The notes under the pieces: model-generated
Database searches by the model: none
The model's input: only the letters and a program-made list of their open reading frames with translations
Told to the model about the DNA's origin: nothing
Program-made: the position numbers and the translations under genes
Shown here: piece by piece, positions 13,436 to 22,161 of the stretch
Layout of the letters: each line of letters starts with the position of its first letter
How positions within the stretch are numbered: the first letter of the stretch is position 1
NCBI GenBank assembly: GCA_027486405.1
Contig: JAIXPD010000014.1
Span: forward strand, 1 to 64,000
Source: Azospirillum sp.
GTDB lineage: Bacteria; Pseudomonadota; Alphaproteobacteria; Azospirillales; Azospirillaceae
DNA length: 64,000 bases
Direction: 5' to 3'

Positions 13436-14869
13436 CTACAAAGCCGGGGAGCGGGCCGGGGCGGGCAGCGCCAGCGGGGTTTGCAAACAGGCCTGGTCCC
13501 GGCCCAGATGCTTGGCCTGATACAGCGCCTCGTCGGCGCGCCGCAGCAGGCTGTCCACCGTGTCGCCGGGCCGCAGGCTGGCCACGCCGCCGCTGACGCT
13601 GTGCGGCCAGCCGGTGGCAAAGGCGTGGCCGCGCACCGCCTCGCACAACCGGTGGGCGACGATCAAGGCCGATTCCGCGTCGGTTTCCGGGCAGAGGATG
13701 AGAAACTCCTCGCCACCCCAGCGGCCGACCACATCGATGCTGCGGGTGCTGGACCGCGCGATGGCGGCGAACTCCCGCAGCATCCGGTCCCCCGCCAGAT
13801 GACCGAGCCGGTCGTTGACCCGCTTGAAATGGTCCAGATCGCACATGATGACCGACAGCGGCCGTTTGTGCCGGTTCGACCGGTCGATTTCCTTGGCGAA
13901 ACGGTCGTTCAGGCTGGCGCGGTTGGCCAGACCGGTCAGGCTGTCGGTCTGCGAGGCCACCGCCAGCTTGCGGTTCAGCCGGTACAGCGTGGCGATCCAG
14001 AACAGGCTGGTCAGCAGCACCAGGGTGAAGGCGAAAACGATCTTCTGGATCAGGTCGTAATCCAGCCCGGTTTGCACGGTGATGGCGACGTGCCGGTTGG
14101 CGATCAACGCCCGTTCCTGCGGCGTGATGGTGGCGATGGCCTGGTTGAGACGGTCGCGCAGCTCTGGCGCGCCCTTCAGCACGCCGATGCGCAGCAGATT
14201 GTCATAACCGGGGATCTGACCGGCGATTTTGAGGTTGAACCAACCTTCCGTCTTGATGGTGTGAACCGACACCGTCAGCGACCGGATGGTCAGATCGGCC
14301 TTGCGCCGCGACAGCAGGGCAAAGGCGTCGGCCTCGCTGTCGGTCAGCAGGATGCGCAGGTTGGGAAAATCACGCCGCACCCGCTCTTCGATCGAGGTGC
14401 CCTTGGGCAGGACCAGGGTTTCATTGGACAGCCCGGCCAGATCGGCGACGAAGGGGTGTTCTTCGTGGGTGATGATGACGTTGGGGTCGGTGAACAGCGG
14501 TTCGGTGAACAGCAGCCACGCGTCGCGCTTGGGCGTCTGGTTCAGGAAATTCAGCAGGGTGCAGGCCCCGGCCTTGGATTGGCCGATGCTCTCTTCCCAA
14601 TCCTTGGTCGGCACCAGCGCCAGGGGCACGCCCGCGCGCGACGCGGCCAGCCGCAGCAGGTCGCCGCCGATGCCCACATGCTGCCCTTGCGGGGTCAGGC
14701 TGTCGTAAGGCGGCCAATCGGGATCCACGCAATAGGACACCGCCCCTGTGGCGCTGTCGGCGCGCGGTCCCACCGGCCCTGACTCTTGGCTCAGCCCCGG
14801 CGTGGCGCGCAGCAGCAGGAGCGCGCACAACGCGGCGGCAGCGATCTTGCGTGGAAAGAGCAACGGCAT
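13436..14869 (-). CDS. Membrane diguanylate cyclase with periplasmic solute-binding sensor domain
   Basis: 477 residues from ATG 14869 (MPLLFPRKIAA), which starts a proper signal sequence; an upstream in-frame start at 14968 is less likely. Residues of about 40-270 form a type-3 periplasmic-binding (amino-acid-receptor-like) domain: SYCVDPDWPPYDSL, then LLTDSEADAFALLSRRKADL. A membrane helix follows (IVFAFTLVLLTSLFWIATLY), then a GGDEF domain with the active motif RWGGEEFLIL and the substrate segment DLDHFKRVNDRLGHLAGD. It should make cyclic-di-GMP in response to a periplasmic ligand. No RxxD inhibitory site is obvious just before the active motif. It is convergent with the His/Asp-tailed gene. 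Confidence 0.92.
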   Translation of the reverse strand: MPLLFPRKIAAAALCALLLLRATPGLSQESGPVGPRADSATGAVSYCVDPDWPPYDSLTPQGQHVGIGGDLLRLAASRAGVPLALVPTKDWEESIGQSKAGACTLLNFLNQTPKRDAWLLFTEPLFTDPNVIITHEEHPFVADLAGLSNETLVLPKGTSIEERVRRDFPNLRILLTDSEADAFALLSRRKADLTIRSLTVSVHTIKTEGWFNLKIAGQIPGYDNLLRIGVLKGAPELRDRLNQAIATITPQERALIANRHVAITVQTGLDYDLIQKIVFAFTLVLLTSLFWIATLYRLNRKLAVASQTDSLTGLANRASLNDRFAKEIDRSNRHKRPLSVIMCDLDHFKRVNDRLGHLAGDRMLREFAAIARSSTRSIDVVGRWGGEEFLILCPETDAESALIVAHRLCEAVRGHAFATGWPHSVSGGVASLRPGDTVDSLLRRADEALYQAKHLGRDQACLQTPLALPAPARSPAL

Positions 14870-15022
14870 GACCCACCACGAATGCGATTCCACTGGGCGA
14901 GCATACCCCAGTGTGCCGCCATGATAGCCCGACGATGGTGCGGCGCGCCATTGGTGGAACCGCAACAAGTTGCGACACGCGGTCGCCGAGGAAAAGGCGG
15001 CCGCGCGGCAACTTGCAGTGGA

Positions 15023-15807: not shown

Positions 15808-16689
15808 TCAGCTCCCGGCGGTCCAGGGGTGGCGTTTGGCGAGCGCGATGAAGGCGCGCAGGGCCGGGGAATGGCGGCGGCCCGCCACCGTCACCAACCG
15901 GATGTCGCGGGCGATTTCCGGTTCCACAATCACGCGTGTGGCGATCCCCGGCAGAATCGGCAGATACTCCGGCATCACCGCGCAGCCCATCCCGGCCAGA
16001 ATCAGGGCCTGCACCCAATCCTCGCGCTCCGTGGCGTAGCAGACGCGGACATCCACCGTGTCGGGCAGGCCCAGGGCCGAGAAATGATCGGGGTATTCGC
16101 AATTGATGCGGGAGAGGTAATCCTCGCCCTGCAAGGCGCTGTAGGGCACGCGGTCCATCGCCTCGAACCGGTGGCCGGGGGCAAAGGCGACGCTGTAGCG
16201 CTCCCGGTACAGGAAATCATGGTCGCAGCGGTCGGGCAGATCGGGCAGGCCGACGAAGGCGACGTCCAATTCCCCTTCCATCAGCAGCCGCACCACCTCG
16301 CGGCCCGGCGCGTCCTTCAGCGTCACCTCGACGGTCGGCAACTCGTGGTGCACGCGCTTGAGGAACTCCACCATCCGCCCCGGCCCGATGGTGCACATCA
16401 GCCCGACGCGCAGCGGCGTGTGGTCCAGCTTGCGCCAGCATTCGGCCTGGTGGCGCGCCATCTCGCTGGCGTTGAACACCGCCTCCAGATGCGGGCGCAT
16501 CAGGCGGCCCAGATCGGTCAGATGGGTCAGGCCGCGTTCCCGCCGGAACAGCGGGCCGCCCAACTCGTCCTCCAACCGCTTGATCGCCTTGGTCAGCGAG
16601 GGCTGCGTCACCCCGCAGGCGTCGGCGGCGCGTGTGAAGTTCAAGGTCTGGCACAGGGCCATGAAATACTGAACCTGATGGATTTCCAT
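15808..16689 (-). CDS. LysR-family transcriptional regulator
   Basis: 293 residues: N-terminal winged helix (YFMALCQTLNFTRAADACGVTQPSLTKAIKRLEDELGG) and a standard LysR effector domain. No catabolic gene is divergent from it. It lies downstream of the chemoreceptor/bufferin operon on the same strand, separated by 168 bases. The target is unknown. Confidence 0.92.
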   Translation of the reverse strand: MEIHQVQYFMALCQTLNFTRAADACGVTQPSLTKAIKRLEDELGGPLFRRERGLTHLTDLGRLMRPHLEAVFNASEMARHQAECWRKLDHTPLRVGLMCTIGPGRMVEFLKRVHHELPTVEVTLKDAPGREVVRLLMEGELDVAFVGLPDLPDRCDHDFLYRERYSVAFAPGHRFEAMDRVPYSALQGEDYLSRINCEYPDHFSALGLPDTVDVRVCYATEREDWVQALILAGMGCAVMPEYLPILPGIATRVIVEPEIARDIRLVTVAGRRHSPALRAFIALAKRHPWTAGS

Positions 16690-16857
16690 GCCGCCGCCCC
16701 GCCGTCCACCCTTCGGACGGGCACCGCAAAGATGCCGCCCGTCACGCTTGTACGCAAGCCGGTGGGGGGACGGTACGGGAAATCACACGCTTCACGGATT
16801 CGTGACCGGGGACGACGCAGGTGGCGGGGGCGGGTGGCGGGGGGCTTGGCGGGTGGA

Positions 16858-18516
16858 TCACACCGATTTTGCCGTGGTCAGGAACCCTTCGACCGCGCCC
16901 TTCAGGCCGTGGCTGTCGCGCGACAGCGCTTCGGCGGCGGTGAAGACACGGCGGGCCAGCGTGTCGGTGGCCTCCACCGCGCGGGCGATGACGGAGATGT
17001 TGCGCGACGCTTCGTCGCTGCCCGACGCGGCGGCGCGCACGCTGTCGCTGATCTGTCCGGCGGTGCGGCCCTGCTCCTCCACCGTCGCGGCGACGTCGCG
17101 CACGTTGGTGTCGATGTCGTGGATGATCGCCGTCACCTGCTGGATGGTGGCGACGGCGCGGTCGGTTTCGCTGCGCACGGCGGCGATCTGGCCGGTGATC
17201 TCCTCCGTCGCCAGGGCGGTCTGGTCGGCCAGCGCCTTCACCTCGGCGGCGACGACGGCGAAGCCCTTGCCCGCCTCGCCCGCGCGCGCGGCCTCGATGG
17301 AGGCGTTGAGCGCCAGCAGACGGGTTTCCTTGGCGATCTTTTCAATCAGCTTCACCACCGCGCCGATGCGGGCGGAGGTTTCCGACAGGCCGCGCACGGT
17401 GCGGTCGGTGTCGCGGGCCTGATCGCTGGCGCGGGTGGTGATGCGCGCGGTTTCGCCGACCCGGTCCAGCATGCGGTCGATCTGGCGGGCCAGATCCTCC
17501 ACCGCCCCGGCGACGGTCCCGACGTTGGCCGACGCCTGCCCGGCCCCGTCCGCCACCACCGCGCAGCGCTGGGCGGTGTCGGCCGCCGTGCCGCGCAGGT
17601 CCGCCGCCACCCCCTGCACGTCGGCCAGCGCGCCTTCCACGCTGCGCAGCATGGTGGTTCCCTGCTGGTCGAACACCGCCATCGCCTCTTCCAACCGGCG
17701 TTGGCGGGTCAGGCGTTCGCTCTGCGCCTGTCCGGCGCGTTGCTCCTCGCGCAGGCGGTCGATTTCGGCCAGCTTTTCCTTGAAGATCTTCACCGCGCGG
17801 GCCATCGCGCCGATCTCGTCCCGTTTGGTGGTGTGGGGAATGTCGCCCGCCGTGTCGCCGTCGGCCAGCCGCAGCATCGCCGCTTCGATCCCGCGCACCG
17901 GGCCGACGACGCTGCGGATCACCAGCAGCATGGCGGGCAGCAGCACCGCCAGCACGGCACCCGCCACCAGCATGGTGAGCAGGACCAAGCGCTGGTTGGC
18001 CTGCCGGATCGCCTCGTCCGCCGCCACCAGCCGTTCGGAGGTGGTTTGGTAGAGCGTCTGGAACAGGGCGTTCACCGGCTCCGACGCCGCTTTCAGCCCG
18101 CCGACCAACTCCACCAGCGTCATGCGGTTGCCGGATTCCAGGCCGCTGGTCTGGGTTTGGACGTAATCGGTGAAGGCCTTGAAATGGCGTTCGAACTCCG
18201 CCTGCTTGCCGTTGCGCCGCGCCGGATCCCCGGCGGTGGAGCCGATGAAGTCCAGATTGGCGCGGACCACGGTGAAATGGCCCTTCAGCGCGTCGGCGTC
18301 GGTGATCGACCAGGCCTCCAGCAGGCTGGCGTGGGTCTGCTGCACGCCGAACCAGGCGTCGGTCAGGGTGTCGCGGTCGCCGCGCAGCTCCACACTGGCC
18401 TCCACCGCGCGTTCAACGGCCCCATTGGCGATGAAACCGGCGGCGAGCACGGCGGCGAAGCCCAGCGCGGCCACCACCGGCAAAAGCCACAGACGGGCGC
18501 GGATCGACAGGGTCAT
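16858..18516 (-). CDS. Methyl-accepting chemotaxis protein coupled to the bufferin operon
   Basis: 552 residues. Membrane helices at about 8-30 and 178-201 enclose a helical periplasmic sensor of about 145 residues with three histidines (62, 80, 111) and no cysteine. HAMP follows, then the signalling hairpin with the conserved tip region ([35 protein letters not shown]). No CheR/CheB pentapeptide tether is seen at the C-terminus. Its ATG overlaps the stop of the DoxX gene (ATGA, 18513-18516), so it appears to be the fifth gene of the bufA-B-C-doxX operon. This coupling suggests that it senses the metal or the redox state that the operon handles; that is inference. Confidence 0.93.
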
Positions 18517-18971
18517 GGACGGAACCTTTCGCGGGAATCGTCGCAGCGGCGGCGGATCAGGTGATCGAGGGAGAGTTGACCCGGCCCGCGCAGCAGCACA
18601 TAGACCAGGGCGGAGGCCCAGAGCAGATGATCGGGCCAGCTTCCCGGATAGACGAAGATCTGGATGGTCAGCGTCATCCCCAGCAGCGCCCCGGCGCTGA
18701 GGCGGGAGGCCAGACCGATGACCAGCAGGGCCGGGAACAGATGCTCCGACACCGTCGCCAGCACGGCGGCCAGATCGGGCGGCAGCAGCGGCACCCGGTA
18801 TTCGTCGCGGAACAGGTCAAAGGTGCTTTCGTTGATGGAAAAGCCCGTGACCTTGGTCTGGCCCGACCGCCAGAAGATGGCGGCCACACCCCAGCGGCAC
18901 AGCGCGCCGTGCAGCCAATCGGGCGAGCGGTTCAGCCAACGGAGGAGGGTGAGAACATTGTGGCGCATCAT
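18513..18971 (-). CDS. DoxX-family membrane protein of the bufferin operon
   Basis: 152 residues with about four membrane helices ([46 protein letters not shown] and others), the DoxX layout. DoxX proteins are small quinone- or thiol-linked membrane proteins. In Cupriavidus gig (gold-induced) and related operons a DoxX gene follows the DUF2282-DUF692-DUF2063 trio, exactly as here. It overlaps the DUF2063 gene by four bases and the chemoreceptor by four. Confidence 0.88.
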
Positions 18972-19744
18972 GGCAAACGGTATCCCCCAAAGGCGCGGGC
19001 GGTGAGCAGCGCGGCCAATTCGCTGGCAAGGTCGAAATCCGGGTCGGTGGCCAGCGCGCTGTCCCAGGCGGCGGCCAAGCTTTGCTGCGCGGCCAGCGCC
19101 ATCAGGAAGGAGAAGGCCCCGCGCGAGAGCGGATGAAACACCACCGCCATCTCGGGCCGATGGACCAGCAGATGCACTGGCCCGCTGTCGAGCCGGATCT
19201 CCTCGTCCGGGGCAGCGTCCTGGTTGCTGCGCCAGATCGCGTCCACCGGATAGGCCGAGGCCAGCAGCCGTTGCGAGGGCAGGGGCGACAGGCGCAACTC
19301 ACCCAGCCGTTCGGGGTCGAGGGTGGCGAGGATCTGCGGGAGCAGCGGTTCCCCATCGGCGGCGTGGTACGCGTGGGTCCAGGCGCATTCCAACCGGGCC
19401 ACGTCGCTGAGATAGGGCAACTCGCGCACCGGGGCGTAGCCGGTGAGAAAGGCGGGAAACTCCGCGCCGATGGTCAGCAGGCTGGCCCGGCGCGGCGGGT
19501 GGGCGCGCAGGAAATCCTGCGCCATCCGGTCAAAAAACAGCTCCCCCACCAACCGCCGCACCACCGGAAAGGCGTCGCCCAGCGCGCCCGCCAGACCCAG
19601 CATGGTGGTGTTGCGGTGGATCGACAGGCGATCGGCCATCGGCGGGCCGCCGCAATCGGTCAAGGCCCCGGCCAGCGCGCCGCGCCCGTCGGCGTCAAAG
19701 GCGAAATCGCGCATCCGCGTCTGGAACTCACGCACCGACCGCAT
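18968..19744 (-). CDS. bufC: DUF2063 partner protein of the MNIO enzyme (BufC-like)
   Basis: 258 residues of the DUF2063/HvfC family: N-terminal helical domain (REFQTRMRDFAFD, DRLSIHRNTTMLGLAGALGDAFPVVRRLVGELFF, DFLRAHPP) and a C-terminal part with ECAWTHAYHA. Members partner with DUF692 oxidases (as MbnC does with MbnB) and help recognise the precursor peptide. The gene overlaps the upstream DUF692 gene by 17 bases and the downstream DoxX gene by four, as in a tight operon. Confidence 0.85.
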   Translation of the reverse strand: MRSVREFQTRMRDFAFDADGRGALAGALTDCGGPPMADRLSIHRNTTMLGLAGALGDAFPVVRRLVGELFFDRMAQDFLRAHPPRRASLLTIGAEFPAFLTGYAPVRELPYLSDVARLECAWTHAYHAADGEPLLPQILATLDPERLGELRLSPLPSQRLLASAYPVDAIWRSNQDAAPDEEIRLDSGPVHLLVHRPEMAVVFHPLSRGAFSFLMALAAQQSLAAAWDSALATDPDFDLASELAALLTARAFGGYRLP

Positions 19745-20696
19745 CGCGCACCTCCGGTGATGTGGGCGTTGCCAAGGCTTCTTTTGTTTCGGTGATGGCG
19801 GTTTCGGCGGTGGCCGCTTCGGCGTCGGCGCGCGCGGCCTCGTCGCACAGCACGTCCAGCGGCGGGATGTCGCTGTCCCATTCGATCAGGGTCGGGCGCG
19901 CGCCGATGCGGGCCACCGCCGCGCGGTAGAGCGCCCACACCTCCGGGATCACGCGCGATCCGTGATCGTCGATGCGCAGGCTGGTTCCGTCGGGGAACTG
20001 GCGGTGGTGATGCCCGGCGAGGTGATACTCGCCCACCGCCCCCGCCGGGAGGGTGTCGAGATAGGCCAGCGGGTCGGTCCCGATGTTGTGGGCGCAGACG
20101 AACAGGTTGTTGACGTCCAGCAGGATGCCGCAGCCGGTGCGCCGGGTCAGTTCGGCCAGAAACTCGGCCTCCGGGATCGGGCTGTCGGCGTAGCGGATGT
20201 AGGCCGACGGGTTTTCGATCAGGATCGGGCGGCGCAACCGTTCCTGCACCCGGTCGATGCGGGCGGCGACGTGGGCCAGCGTGGCGGGGGTGTAGGGGAT
20301 CGGCAGCAGATCGTTCAGGTGGACGCCGTCGCTCTGGCTCCAGGCCAGATGCTCCGACACCAGCGCCGGGCGGCTGCGCTCCACCACGCGGGCCAGCGCC
20401 TCAAGATGATCCTCGTCCAGCGGCGTTGCCCCGCCCAGCGACAGGCCGACGCCATGGACCGACACGGGGTAATGCTCGCGCAGCGCCGCCAACCAGCGGT
20501 GCGGCGGGCCGCCCGCGCCCATGTAATTCTCGGCGTGGATTTCCAGGAAGGCGACCGGGGGGCGGCTGTCCAGCAGCAACGCCGCGTGCCGCGCCTTCAG
20601 CCCGATCCCGGCCAGGGCGGGCGGCGGGGCGGGGTGATCGGCGGCGCGGTCCGTGGGGCGGACCAGCGCCGTGGCATGGGCGGTGCGGAAGGGCAT
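19728..20696 (-). CDS. bufB: DUF692 multinuclear non-haem iron oxidase (MNIO), BufB-like
   Basis: 322 residues with the TIM-barrel MNIO signature: LEIHAENYMG, SVHGVGLSLGG, LVSEHLAWS, LIENPSAYI, LLDVNNLFVCAHN, EYHLAGHHH and IEWDSDIPPLD supply the His/Asp/Glu/Asn iron ligands. MNIO enzymes modify cysteines of short peptides (MbnB for methanobactin; BufB for bufferins, reported to form thiooxazoles). It follows the precursor gene by 25 bases with a GGGGGA ribosome site, and overlaps the DUF2063 gene. The substrate is therefore almost certainly the DUF2282 peptide encoded just before it. The C-terminus carries an Ala/Thr/Glu-rich extension. Confidence 0.92.
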   Translation of the reverse strand: MPFRTAHATALVRPTDRAADHPAPPPALAGIGLKARHAALLLDSRPPVAFLEIHAENYMGAGGPPHRWLAALREHYPVSVHGVGLSLGGATPLDEDHLEALARVVERSRPALVSEHLAWSQSDGVHLNDLLPIPYTPATLAHVAARIDRVQERLRRPILIENPSAYIRYADSPIPEAEFLAELTRRTGCGILLDVNNLFVCAHNIGTDPLAYLDTLPAGAVGEYHLAGHHHRQFPDGTSLRIDDHGSRVIPEVWALYRAAVARIGARPTLIEWDSDIPPLDVLCDEAARADAEAATAETAITETKEALATPTSPEVRDAVGA

Positions 20697-20721
20697 GAGG
20701 ATCGTCCCCCGGTCGTGACGA

Positions 20722-21003
20722 TCAGCCCGCCTTCGGGGTCACGCTGGCACCCACCAGCTTGCCGCAGGTCCCCTTGGGAACCAGCAGGAAGGCGTGGCCG
20801 TCGCCGTCCTTCTTGGAGGTGCCGGCGCAGGACGAGGTCGGGGTCTGGCAATCGTTCATCCCGGCCTTGGCGATGCCATAGCATTTTTCCTTTTCGTCGG
20901 CGGCCTGCGCGGTCCCGACGCTCGCCCCGGCCAGCGCGGCGGTGATGGCGGTGGCGGCGATCAGGCTGGCGAGCGTGGTCTTGCTGGCGGTCTTGGCGGT
21001 CAT
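20722..21003 (-). CDS. bufA: DUF2282 bufferin precursor peptide (BufA1-like)
   Basis: 93 residues. A long signal peptide (about 34 residues, ending VGTAQAA) precedes the core [17 protein letters not shown], then SSCAG and [10 protein letters not shown]. Four cysteines are spaced as in DUF2282 peptides. Bufferins are exported copper-binding RiPPs whose cysteines are modified by the DUF692/DUF2063 pair; both enzymes are encoded directly downstream. AGAGGA precedes the ATG. The product is expected to be exported and to bind Cu in the periplasm. Copper as the inducer or target here is inferred from the family. Confidence 0.92.
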
Positions 21004-21076
21004 GGCGGCGTTCCTCTTTGGGATGTTGCGATGACCGAACTGTCGCAGATCAAACGGCTCCTGTGAAATGCCGGGG

Positions 21077-21095
21077 GGCTATCAATTCCATAGCC
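21077..21095. promoter_or_regulatory. Inverted repeat upstream of bufA
   Basis: GGCTAT and ATAGCC flank a 7-base centre at 21077-21095, about 75 bases before the bufA start codon. Such a dyad in the promoter region is a candidate operator; the regulator is not identified. The upstream LysR gene (21148-22044) is one possibility. Confidence 0.4.
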
Positions 21096-21147
21096 GCCGG
21101 GAATGACGATCACGATCCGATCACGGACGCGTGATTGCTTCGCCACC

Positions 21148-22044
21148 TCAATCCGCCTCCTCGGCAAAGGCACCGATCAGGAAATCGAGAAAGGCGCGCA
21201 GCTTGGGCGCAACGTGCTGGCGCGAGGGGTAGATGGCGTGCAGCGTGGTTTCCACCGTCTGCCAATCGGTCAGCACCGCGTGCAGACGGCCCTGCGCCAA
21301 ATCCTCGGCCACATAGGGCAGGGGGATCAGGCTGATGCCCAAACCCGCGCGCAGCGCGTCGCGCACAGCCAGACTGGATGACACCGAATATTGCCCGCGC
21401 ACGGCGACGCGCTCCACCCGGCCGTCCTTGCGGAACTCCCAGACATCCGCATGGCCGGACAGGCTGAAACGGACGGCGTGCATCCCCGTCAGGTCGGCGG
21501 GCGTGCGCGGCACGCCATGAGCGGCGAAGTAAGATGGGGCACCGCACAGGGCGTGGCGCATCACCGCCAGTTTGCGGGCGATCAGGCTGGAATCATCCAG
21601 GTGATCGGTGCCGCGAATGGCCAGATCGAAGCCTTCGCGCACGATGTCCACCCGGCGGTCATCCAGGTGCAGATCCAACGTCAGGCCGGGATGGGCGGCA
21701 AGAAAGCCGGGTATGACGCTGGAAAGCCGGGTCAACGTCACCGTCATCGGCGCACTGACGCGCAGGGTCCCGGTGGGGGCGGTTTTCACCGGGCACAGCG
21801 CCCGGTCGGCGTCGTTCAGCGCGTCCAGGCCGCGTGTCACATGCTCCAGATAAACGCGCCCCTCGTCGGTCAGGGCCATGCGGCGGGTGGTGCGGTGGAC
21901 CAGACGAACACCGACATGCGCCTCCAACTCCGCGATGTTCTTGCTGACGGCGGGCGGCGACAAGCCCAACCGCCGCCCGGCGGCGGCAAAGCTGTTCAGT
22001 TCCGCCACATGACGGAACACCTGCAAGGCGGTGAGACGGTCCAT
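21148..22044 (-). CDS. LysR-family regulator, divergent from nitroreductase
   Basis: 298 residues from ATG 22044 (MDRLTALQVFRHVAEL); an upstream start at 22086 adds 14 unconserved residues. Winged helix (SFAAAGRRLGLSPPAVSKNIAELEAHVGVRLVHRTTRRMALTDEG) and a LysR effector domain of the CrgA/TsaR type. Divergent from the nitroreductase-EamA pair with 117 bp between, so it probably controls them. It is also upstream of bufA on the same strand, 144 bp away. Confidence 0.93.
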   Translation of the reverse strand: MDRLTALQVFRHVAELNSFAAAGRRLGLSPPAVSKNIAELEAHVGVRLVHRTTRRMALTDEGRVYLEHVTRGLDALNDADRALCPVKTAPTGTLRVSAPMTVTLTRLSSVIPGFLAAHPGLTLDLHLDDRRVDIVREGFDLAIRGTDHLDDSSLIARKLAVMRHALCGAPSYFAAHGVPRTPADLTGMHAVRFSLSGHADVWEFRKDGRVERVAVRGQYSVSSSLAVRDALRAGLGISLIPLPYVAEDLAQGRLHAVLTDWQTVETTLHAIYPSRQHVAPKLRAFLDFLIGAFAEEAD

Positions 22045-22055
22045 CGCATCATTCA

Positions 22056-22067
22056 CTTTTGGAAAAG
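22056..22067. promoter_or_regulatory. Palindrome CTTTTGGAAAAG in the LysR/nitroreductase intergenic region
   Basis: An AT-rich near-palindrome (CTTTT-GG-AAAAG) lies 12 bases upstream of the LysR start, in the divergent promoter region. It is a plausible but unproven autoregulatory site. Confidence 0.3.
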
Positions 22068-22161
22068 AATATCTTGCAAGCATCACACATTATCGCCCCT
22101 TGGTGCATAGGCTATTTCCATGGGCATCGCGTTGTCCCTCTGACCCATTGGAATCCAACCC

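Follow-up and report, generated by a model that had tools for sequence, protein, structure and literature searches.

A predicted bufferin operon of Azospirillum with a chemoreceptor gene as its apparent last member

The stretch of 64,000 nucleotides analyzed here, referred to as the window, comprises positions 1 to 64,000 of contig JAIXPD010000014.1 of Azospirillum sp. (assembly GCA_027486405.1), and its minus strand carries at 16858-21003 five genes in the order bufA-bufB-bufC-doxX-mcp, the last of which encodes a methyl-accepting chemotaxis protein (MCP). As judged from their sequences, the five genes are a bufferin operon of the Buf1 (DUF2282) type that includes the receptor as a member. 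We hold it to be somewhat more probable than its negation that the final gene of this operon is a dedicated, translationally coupled chemoreceptor that would report a condition tied to the operon. The receptor-bearing form of the operon appears to be new, although the bufferin operon type itself is already known. The genes and the junction of interest are as follows.

20722 to 21003, minus strand: bufA, a Buf1-type (DUF2282) bufferin precursor of 93 amino acids (Pfam DUF2282, 3e-22)
19728 to 20696, minus strand: bufB, an MNIO bufferin maturase of 322 amino acids (Pfam MbnB_TglH_ChrH, PF05114, 1e-104)
18968 to 19744, minus strand: bufC, a DUF2063 partner protein of 258 amino acids (Pfam PF09836, 2e-21)
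18513 to 18971, minus strand: doxX, a DoxX-family membrane protein of 152 amino acids (Pfam PF07681, 4e-15)
16858 to 18516, minus strand: mcp, an intact type I chemoreceptor of 552 amino acids (MCPsignal 9e-32, HAMP 4e-10)
18513 to 18516, minus strand: ATGA shared by the doxX stop and the mcp start

An earlier sequence-only reading of this DNA had recognized the DUF2282-DUF692-DUF2063-DoxX set of bufferin operons in its usual order. This is borne out by Pfam, which places all four proteins, and by a score of BufB against the NCBIfam maturase model MNIO_BufB (NF050167) of 373.7 bits, above the cutoff of 310; the closest NCBIfam models of BufA, BufC and DoxX (BufA2, HvfC and HvfX, respectively) all score under cutoff. 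BufA contains four cysteines in its sequence, and its N-terminus is signal-like as judged by eye. A gap of 25 bases separates bufA from bufB, bufB and bufC overlap by 17 bases, and bufC shares with doxX a second ATGA in a 4-base overlap (18968-18971). The ATGA that the same reading had seen between doxX and the receptor gene is indeed present at 18516-18513, but to call the chemoreceptor 'fused' was too strong a wording, as the genes overlap while the proteins are separate. Because of the gene overlaps, co-expression of mcp with the bufferin genes is very likely. A scan of 16600-21200 for sigma-70 promoters revealed none for mcp inside doxX on either strand, a result of little weight in such genomes, and no terminator-like site was found after mcp in the same range.

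Whether relatives share the linkage had been raised by the sequence-only reading as a question that could decide against it, and the survey answered in its favor, with the same five genes found in Azospirillum griseum and A. cavernae. In the 19.9 kilobase (kb) stretch from A. cavernae (G036), just the five operon genes are present among 14 window genes compared, and no counterpart of the genes downstream of mcp was detected in A. griseum, so that the conserved unit ends with mcp. Amino acid identity to A. cavernae over the aligned parts is 91.5% for mcp, 88.5% for doxX, 83.3% for bufC, 83.4% for bufB and 90.1% for bufA. The rate of nonsynonymous substitution (dN), calculated with an experimental Biopython routine that issued numerical warnings, was 0.036 for the sensor, 0.116 for BufB, 0.091 for BufC, 0.062 for DoxX and 0.035 for BufA. 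The sensor of the window's receptor, here termed type I, occurs in three of the 45 genomes of the genus, always within this operon. When 84,980 species were scanned by a search that detects close relatives only, the sole matches were to A. griseum (97%) and to A. cavernae (94%), and no match to this sensor was obtained on plasmids.

The position behind doxX is also occupied by a different receptor in other members of the genus. A survey for BufB gave 24 strong loci in 22 of the 45 genomes, with three weak matches set aside, and at 16 of these loci a receptor directly follows doxX, three times of type I and 13 times with another sensor, designated type II. All 16 junctions (that of the window, both others of type I and the 13 of type II) display the 4-base overlap of doxX and receptor gene, and the type II receptors start with an ATG or GTG within the overlap with the doxX stop. 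In these counts, the operon of genome G025, split across contigs C32 and C25, was taken as one type II locus, a second bufferin locus of G031 (L043), where a weak match to an MCP lies upstream of bufA and not after doxX, was counted as lacking a receptor, and the receptor of G011, which contains a run of N, was left as is. The 13 type II loci form one clade in the BufB tree, with a value of 96 in the Shimodaira-Hasegawa-like approximate likelihood ratio test (SH-aLRT), and all 13 keep the receptor; for this tree the duplicate region L178 was dropped and matches of 250 bits or less were left out. The bufferin core is alike in both types, with a CYG motif and four cysteines, and the type II sensor is also predicted to be a helical bundle. 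Azospirillum sp. B510 has the type II sensor as well, and for plasmid NZ_CP054618.1 of A. oryzae the RefSeq annotation lists DUF2282, DUF692, DNA-binding and DoxX proteins, an MCP (with the 4-base overlap) and an EAL protein. Just upstream of the bufferin operon on this plasmid lies a peroxiredoxin-like gene.

In 12 of the 13 type II genomes, a second and more distant match to the sensor was found just downstream of the receptor; none is listed for G064. As evidenced by Pfam, with HAMP and PAS partly below cutoff, the second protein has a HAMP-PAS-GGDEF-EAL architecture in one type II example and in the homologues from G342 and G349. At L185:3213-5819 and at other type II loci, the GGDEF/EAL protein has the same sensor type as the adjoining receptor. 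The window's own genome encodes a protein with a type II-like sensor elsewhere (G000:C95:105044-105691).

Loci beyond the genus represent a partial take, mostly of top-ranked hits. Among them, a genome of another alphaproteobacterial family (G186) contains a receptor with a longer sensor after doxX, referred to as type III, whose ATG lies 13 bases past the doxX stop, while an in-frame TTG overlaps that stop. Its genus mate G267 has no receptor in the fetched flank, and none was present at the 23 fetched bufferin loci from other classes of the phylum. In G342, of the same family as the window, a GGDEF/EAL protein follows bufC, with neither doxX nor receptor found, and in G349 a pair of receptor and GGDEF/EAL protein is located on a different contig from the bufferin locus. 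Another genus of the window's family shows paired convergent bufferin operons about 9-15 kb apart (L068, L069, L070, L071 and L074), with no match to doxX in one operon per pair.

The type I receptor comprises a first membrane helix, a predicted periplasmic four-helix sensor (residues about 30-176), a second membrane helix, a HAMP domain and the signaling domain. Two hydrophobic segments of membrane type are present, whose position in the membrane was assigned by eye from hydrophobicity, and the model contains long N-terminal helices. AlphaFold2, run on three sequences, yielded a four-helix sensor with helices at 5-69, 74-101, 105-128 and 134-218, and block means of the predicted local distance difference test (pLDDT) of 89-96 over residues 41-160 and lower values outside. 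The top match in the PDB, as identified by Foldseek, is the ligand domain of Tsr (2d4u; E 5e-3, 14% identity), and the ligand-binding domain (LBD) of Vc1313 (8bsa) matches with a TM score to the target of 0.74-0.76 at 9% identity, so that amino-acid receptors are among the best fold matches. The fold match is a weak one, since no match reaches an E of 0.001 and the list also holds unrelated helical membrane proteins with similar scores. The match of the sensor to TarH (PF02203; 9e-4, 19.6 bits) stays below the Pfam gathering cutoff of 25.2.

An unusual feature of the type I receptor is found at the tip of its signaling hairpin.

17303 to 17328, minus strand: codons of the receptor tip ETRLLALNA (QTNLLALNA in all 43 other MCPs compared)

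The ETR tip is present in all three type I receptors, and the type II and type III receptors carry the ordinary QTN tip. The 43 MCPs comprise 29 paralogues from G036 and G022, one from G000, 11 receptors of type II, that of type III and the receptor of G349, the paralogues being the best matches to the window's receptor and not a random set. A pattern search of the window's genome gave 60 QTN tips and a single ETR tip, that of the window's receptor, and the exact ETR pattern with CGN arginine codons was detected in eight of the 45 genus genomes, once in each. Five of these lie in MCPs outside type I; Pfam was run on two of them and identified a PilZ domain in each, together with a protoglobin domain in one. 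A reading of the tip as a sign of kinship with the PilZ-containing MCPs was rejected, since the tree places these apart from type I. QTN is usual at the tip of an MCP hairpin but does not define the family, and positions at the tip are important for contact with CheA and CheW. The ETR tip thus appears to weaken the claim of standard coupling, but not the identity of the protein as an MCP.

The presence of dissimilar receptors at the same junction raises the question of whether types I and II were recruited separately. A profile comparison of the two sensors gave no match, its score of 13.0 lying below those of the 12 best among 31 control sensors (14.6-26.1); a previous comparison was equally negative, and a profile match between the types with an E of 4e-10 reflects the common second membrane helix and HAMP domain, not the sensor. 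An attempt to align the sensors of both types by eye on a common histidine was given up after the profile comparison. The MCP tree separates both types. Nevertheless, placing them in a single clade was not rejected by the approximately unbiased (AU) test, either for the MCPs (p-AU 0.069; 14 rows, with the G349 row outside the constrained group) or for BufB (p-AU 0.192), and BufB of types I and III fall into one weak clade of 12 rows (SH-aLRT 52). In the free, midpoint-rooted BufB tree the common node of types I and II spans 128 of the 148 rows. Separate recruitment of the type I and type II receptors is in our view the better reading of these data, but it is not proven. A wider proposal, which we put forward as a tentative possibility, is that chemoreceptors and cyclic diguanylate (c-di-GMP) enzymes with unrelated sensors were taken up more than once as output modules by the bufferin systems of Azospirillum and of one or more further lineages, by which the copper peptide or the condition that it handles would be read in the periplasm and relayed to motility.

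A number of observations argue against a receptor dedicated to the operon. A receptor after doxX is missing at eight of the 24 loci of the genus, and at 129 of all 148 BufB loci neither a receptor nor a related protein was found in the fetched flank, the other rows being three of type I, 13 of type II, one of type III, one remnant and one 'X-only'; seven of the 129 have less than 3500 bases of downstream flank and could hide a few receptors. With this many loci lacking one, bufferins evidently work without a receptor. In G341, of the same family as the window, the buf genes are retained but the receptor is reduced to a remnant of 94 amino acids, followed by a protein of GGDEF/EAL type, named by likeness. 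In the remnant itself (L077:3663-3947, after doxX), the N-terminus of a type II sensor stands beside a piece of the signaling hairpin. The genus, moreover, is rich in MCPs, with 89 match places in the window's genome, some of them pieces of one gene; at an estimated 5,000 or so genes, an MCP would come next to about 1% of genes on their downstream side, corresponding to a chance expectation of about 1.5 in 148 loci versus three placements. Genomes outside the genus may contain fewer MCPs. A single adjacency is weak evidence for this reason, and the case for linkage rests on retention: the arrangement persists in three species whose surrounding genes have changed, all 13 type II loci keep their receptor, the 4-base overlaps are identical, and the type I sensor was not found at any other site. 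Finally, the three histidines that the sequence-only reading had pointed out in the sensor (62, 80 and 111) are located as stated, but their use as an argument for a metal site had to be abandoned, as His111 is an asparagine in A. cavernae, leaving two of the three invariant among the type I species, and residues 1-202 contain no cysteine. Copper binding by the three histidines is weakly supported.

A rival explanation is that the receptor landed behind doxX and is kept by co-expression only, with a ligand unrelated to metals, for instance an amino acid or an aromatic acid. The high density of MCPs in the genome, the generic four-helix bundle predicted for the sensor with amino-acid receptors among its best matches, the receptor-free loci of the genus and the G341 remnant, which shows that loss is possible, all favor this explanation. 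It is less easily reconciled with two sensors of no detectable similarity that occupy an identical junction, each through a 4-base overlap, with a third receptor in another family, with the retention of the receptor at every type II locus and with the failure to find any type I sensor outside the operon in the genus genomes and the species scanned, and we consider it rather unlikely. Alternatively, the receptor might operate outside the main array, its ETR tip marking a separate signaling array or an alternative cellular function. The strict division between ETR in type I and QTN in the other MCPs compared speaks for this, as does the presence of ETR in few genus genomes and, outside type I, in other MCPs that include both PilZ proteins; types II and III, however, have QTN, so that the linkage does not need ETR, and we take this alternative to be unlikely. 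A further option is that the matured bufferin, or a complex of it with copper, is what the receptor detects in the periplasm, such that the ribosomally synthesized and post-translationally modified peptide (RiPP) is itself the signal. Receptor and bufferin share operon and compartment, the operon shows translational coupling, and different sensors for each bufferin clade would fit co-evolution with the peptide, but no peptide site is evident in the sequence and the bufferin cores of types I and II are alike while the sensors are dissimilar. This appears quite improbable.

The explanation that we favor is a receptor dedicated to the operon, most likely a co-expressed readout of a periplasmic condition that is handled by the bufferin system; it is likely that the receptor reads out something connected with the function of the operon. 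On a rise in periplasmic copper, or in a stress by which the operon is induced, the cell would make a thiooxazole bufferin from BufA, matured by BufB and BufC, and the receptor made from the same message would be inserted into the chemosensory array. Its periplasmic four-helix domain would then signal the presence of a small molecule, or of a state, associated with this condition. Swimming would be adjusted while bufferin buffers the metal, and in type II systems c-di-GMP would probably be adjusted as well through the adjoining GGDEF/EAL protein. Candidate ligands are copper, copper-bufferin and organic compounds, and also redox or sulfur compounds, since DoxX, whose gene is coupled directly to mcp, points to such chemistry.

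The order DUF2282-DUF692-DUF2063-DoxX is the same in the window as in known bufferin operons (bufABC-doxX or gig; CC3254-CC3257 in Caulobacter), from which the window's operon differs by the receptor gene that follows. The gig operons of Cupriavidus and Legionella are reportedly bufferin-type systems. In Caulobacter, a table of sigF-dependent genes contains the same four genes under chromium (PMC3511200), and these four also appear in a table of the copper response (PMC8224329). A survey of MNIO clusters describes sigma factors and NrsF as extras, with other conserved genes in 'extremely low proportions', and the words 'chemotaxis' and 'methyl-accepting' are absent from its main text (PMC12452194). 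According to the abstract of PMC10579534, which does not mention the bufferin operon, McpR is a copper chemoreceptor of Caulobacter, an alphaproteobacterium that also has bufferin-type operons; as described there, McpR is cytoplasmic and uses Cys75 and His99, whereas the window's receptor has a predicted periplasmic sensor without cysteine. In Pseudomonas putida, the copper-binding repressor CsoR was found by screening for partners of CheA (PMC11978298), and copper resistance is likewise tied to chemotaxis there, but in the window it is a receptor that resides in a metallophore operon. Passages of PMC12509749 mention bufferins and chemotaxis apart and in passing. Receptors of the Tar/Tsr type resemble the window's sensor in predicted fold, and the window's receptor differs from them in its operon context and ETR tip. 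The assertion of the sequence-only reading that no bufferin operon with a dedicated chemoreceptor had been described held up in the literature searched, with subscription papers mostly outside its scope, and no paper on Azospirillum with DUF2282 was found in it.

Upstream of bufA, two further features were noted.

21077 to 21095, no strand assigned: palindrome GGCTAT-N7-ATAGCC, candidate operator upstream of bufA (one exact copy in the window's genome)
21148 to 22086, minus strand: LysR-type regulator, upstream on the same strand and outside the counted unit (present in A. griseum; no match in the A. cavernae stretch)

The palindrome is kept upstream of bufA in all three type I species, with a different middle in A. 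cavernae. It occurs at one place each in G000 and G031 and at two in G036, one of the latter at bufA, and six other genus genomes hold one site apiece. As such single sites are to be expected by chance, the candidacy as an operator derives from the conservation in three species and not from the match itself. The spacing T-N11-A is that of LysR boxes. The LysR gene and the next two genes upstream, nitroreductase-like and EamA-like as named by eye, are common to the window and A. griseum. About 1.9 kb beyond the receptor gene, 13436-14968 encodes a GGDEF-like protein with a solute-binding-like N-terminus, again judged by eye.

Bufferins are widespread, and knowledge of what they respond to is incomplete. 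A receptor carried within the operon would provide a direct handle on this question, as identifying its ligand would reveal the cue for the bufferin system. The type II operons offer an internal control, in that receptor and GGDEF/EAL protein with a common sensor type should respond to the same ligand, and testing is feasible since Azospirillum species are cultured bacteria. That related species keep the pairing with different receptors suggests a link between metal defense and motility. Should copper or the peptide prove to be the ligand, a single message would govern both the detoxification of metal and escape behavior, and if the reading of repeated recruitment is true, RiPP-based metal handling would have a sensing branch attached to the very operon that encodes the peptide.

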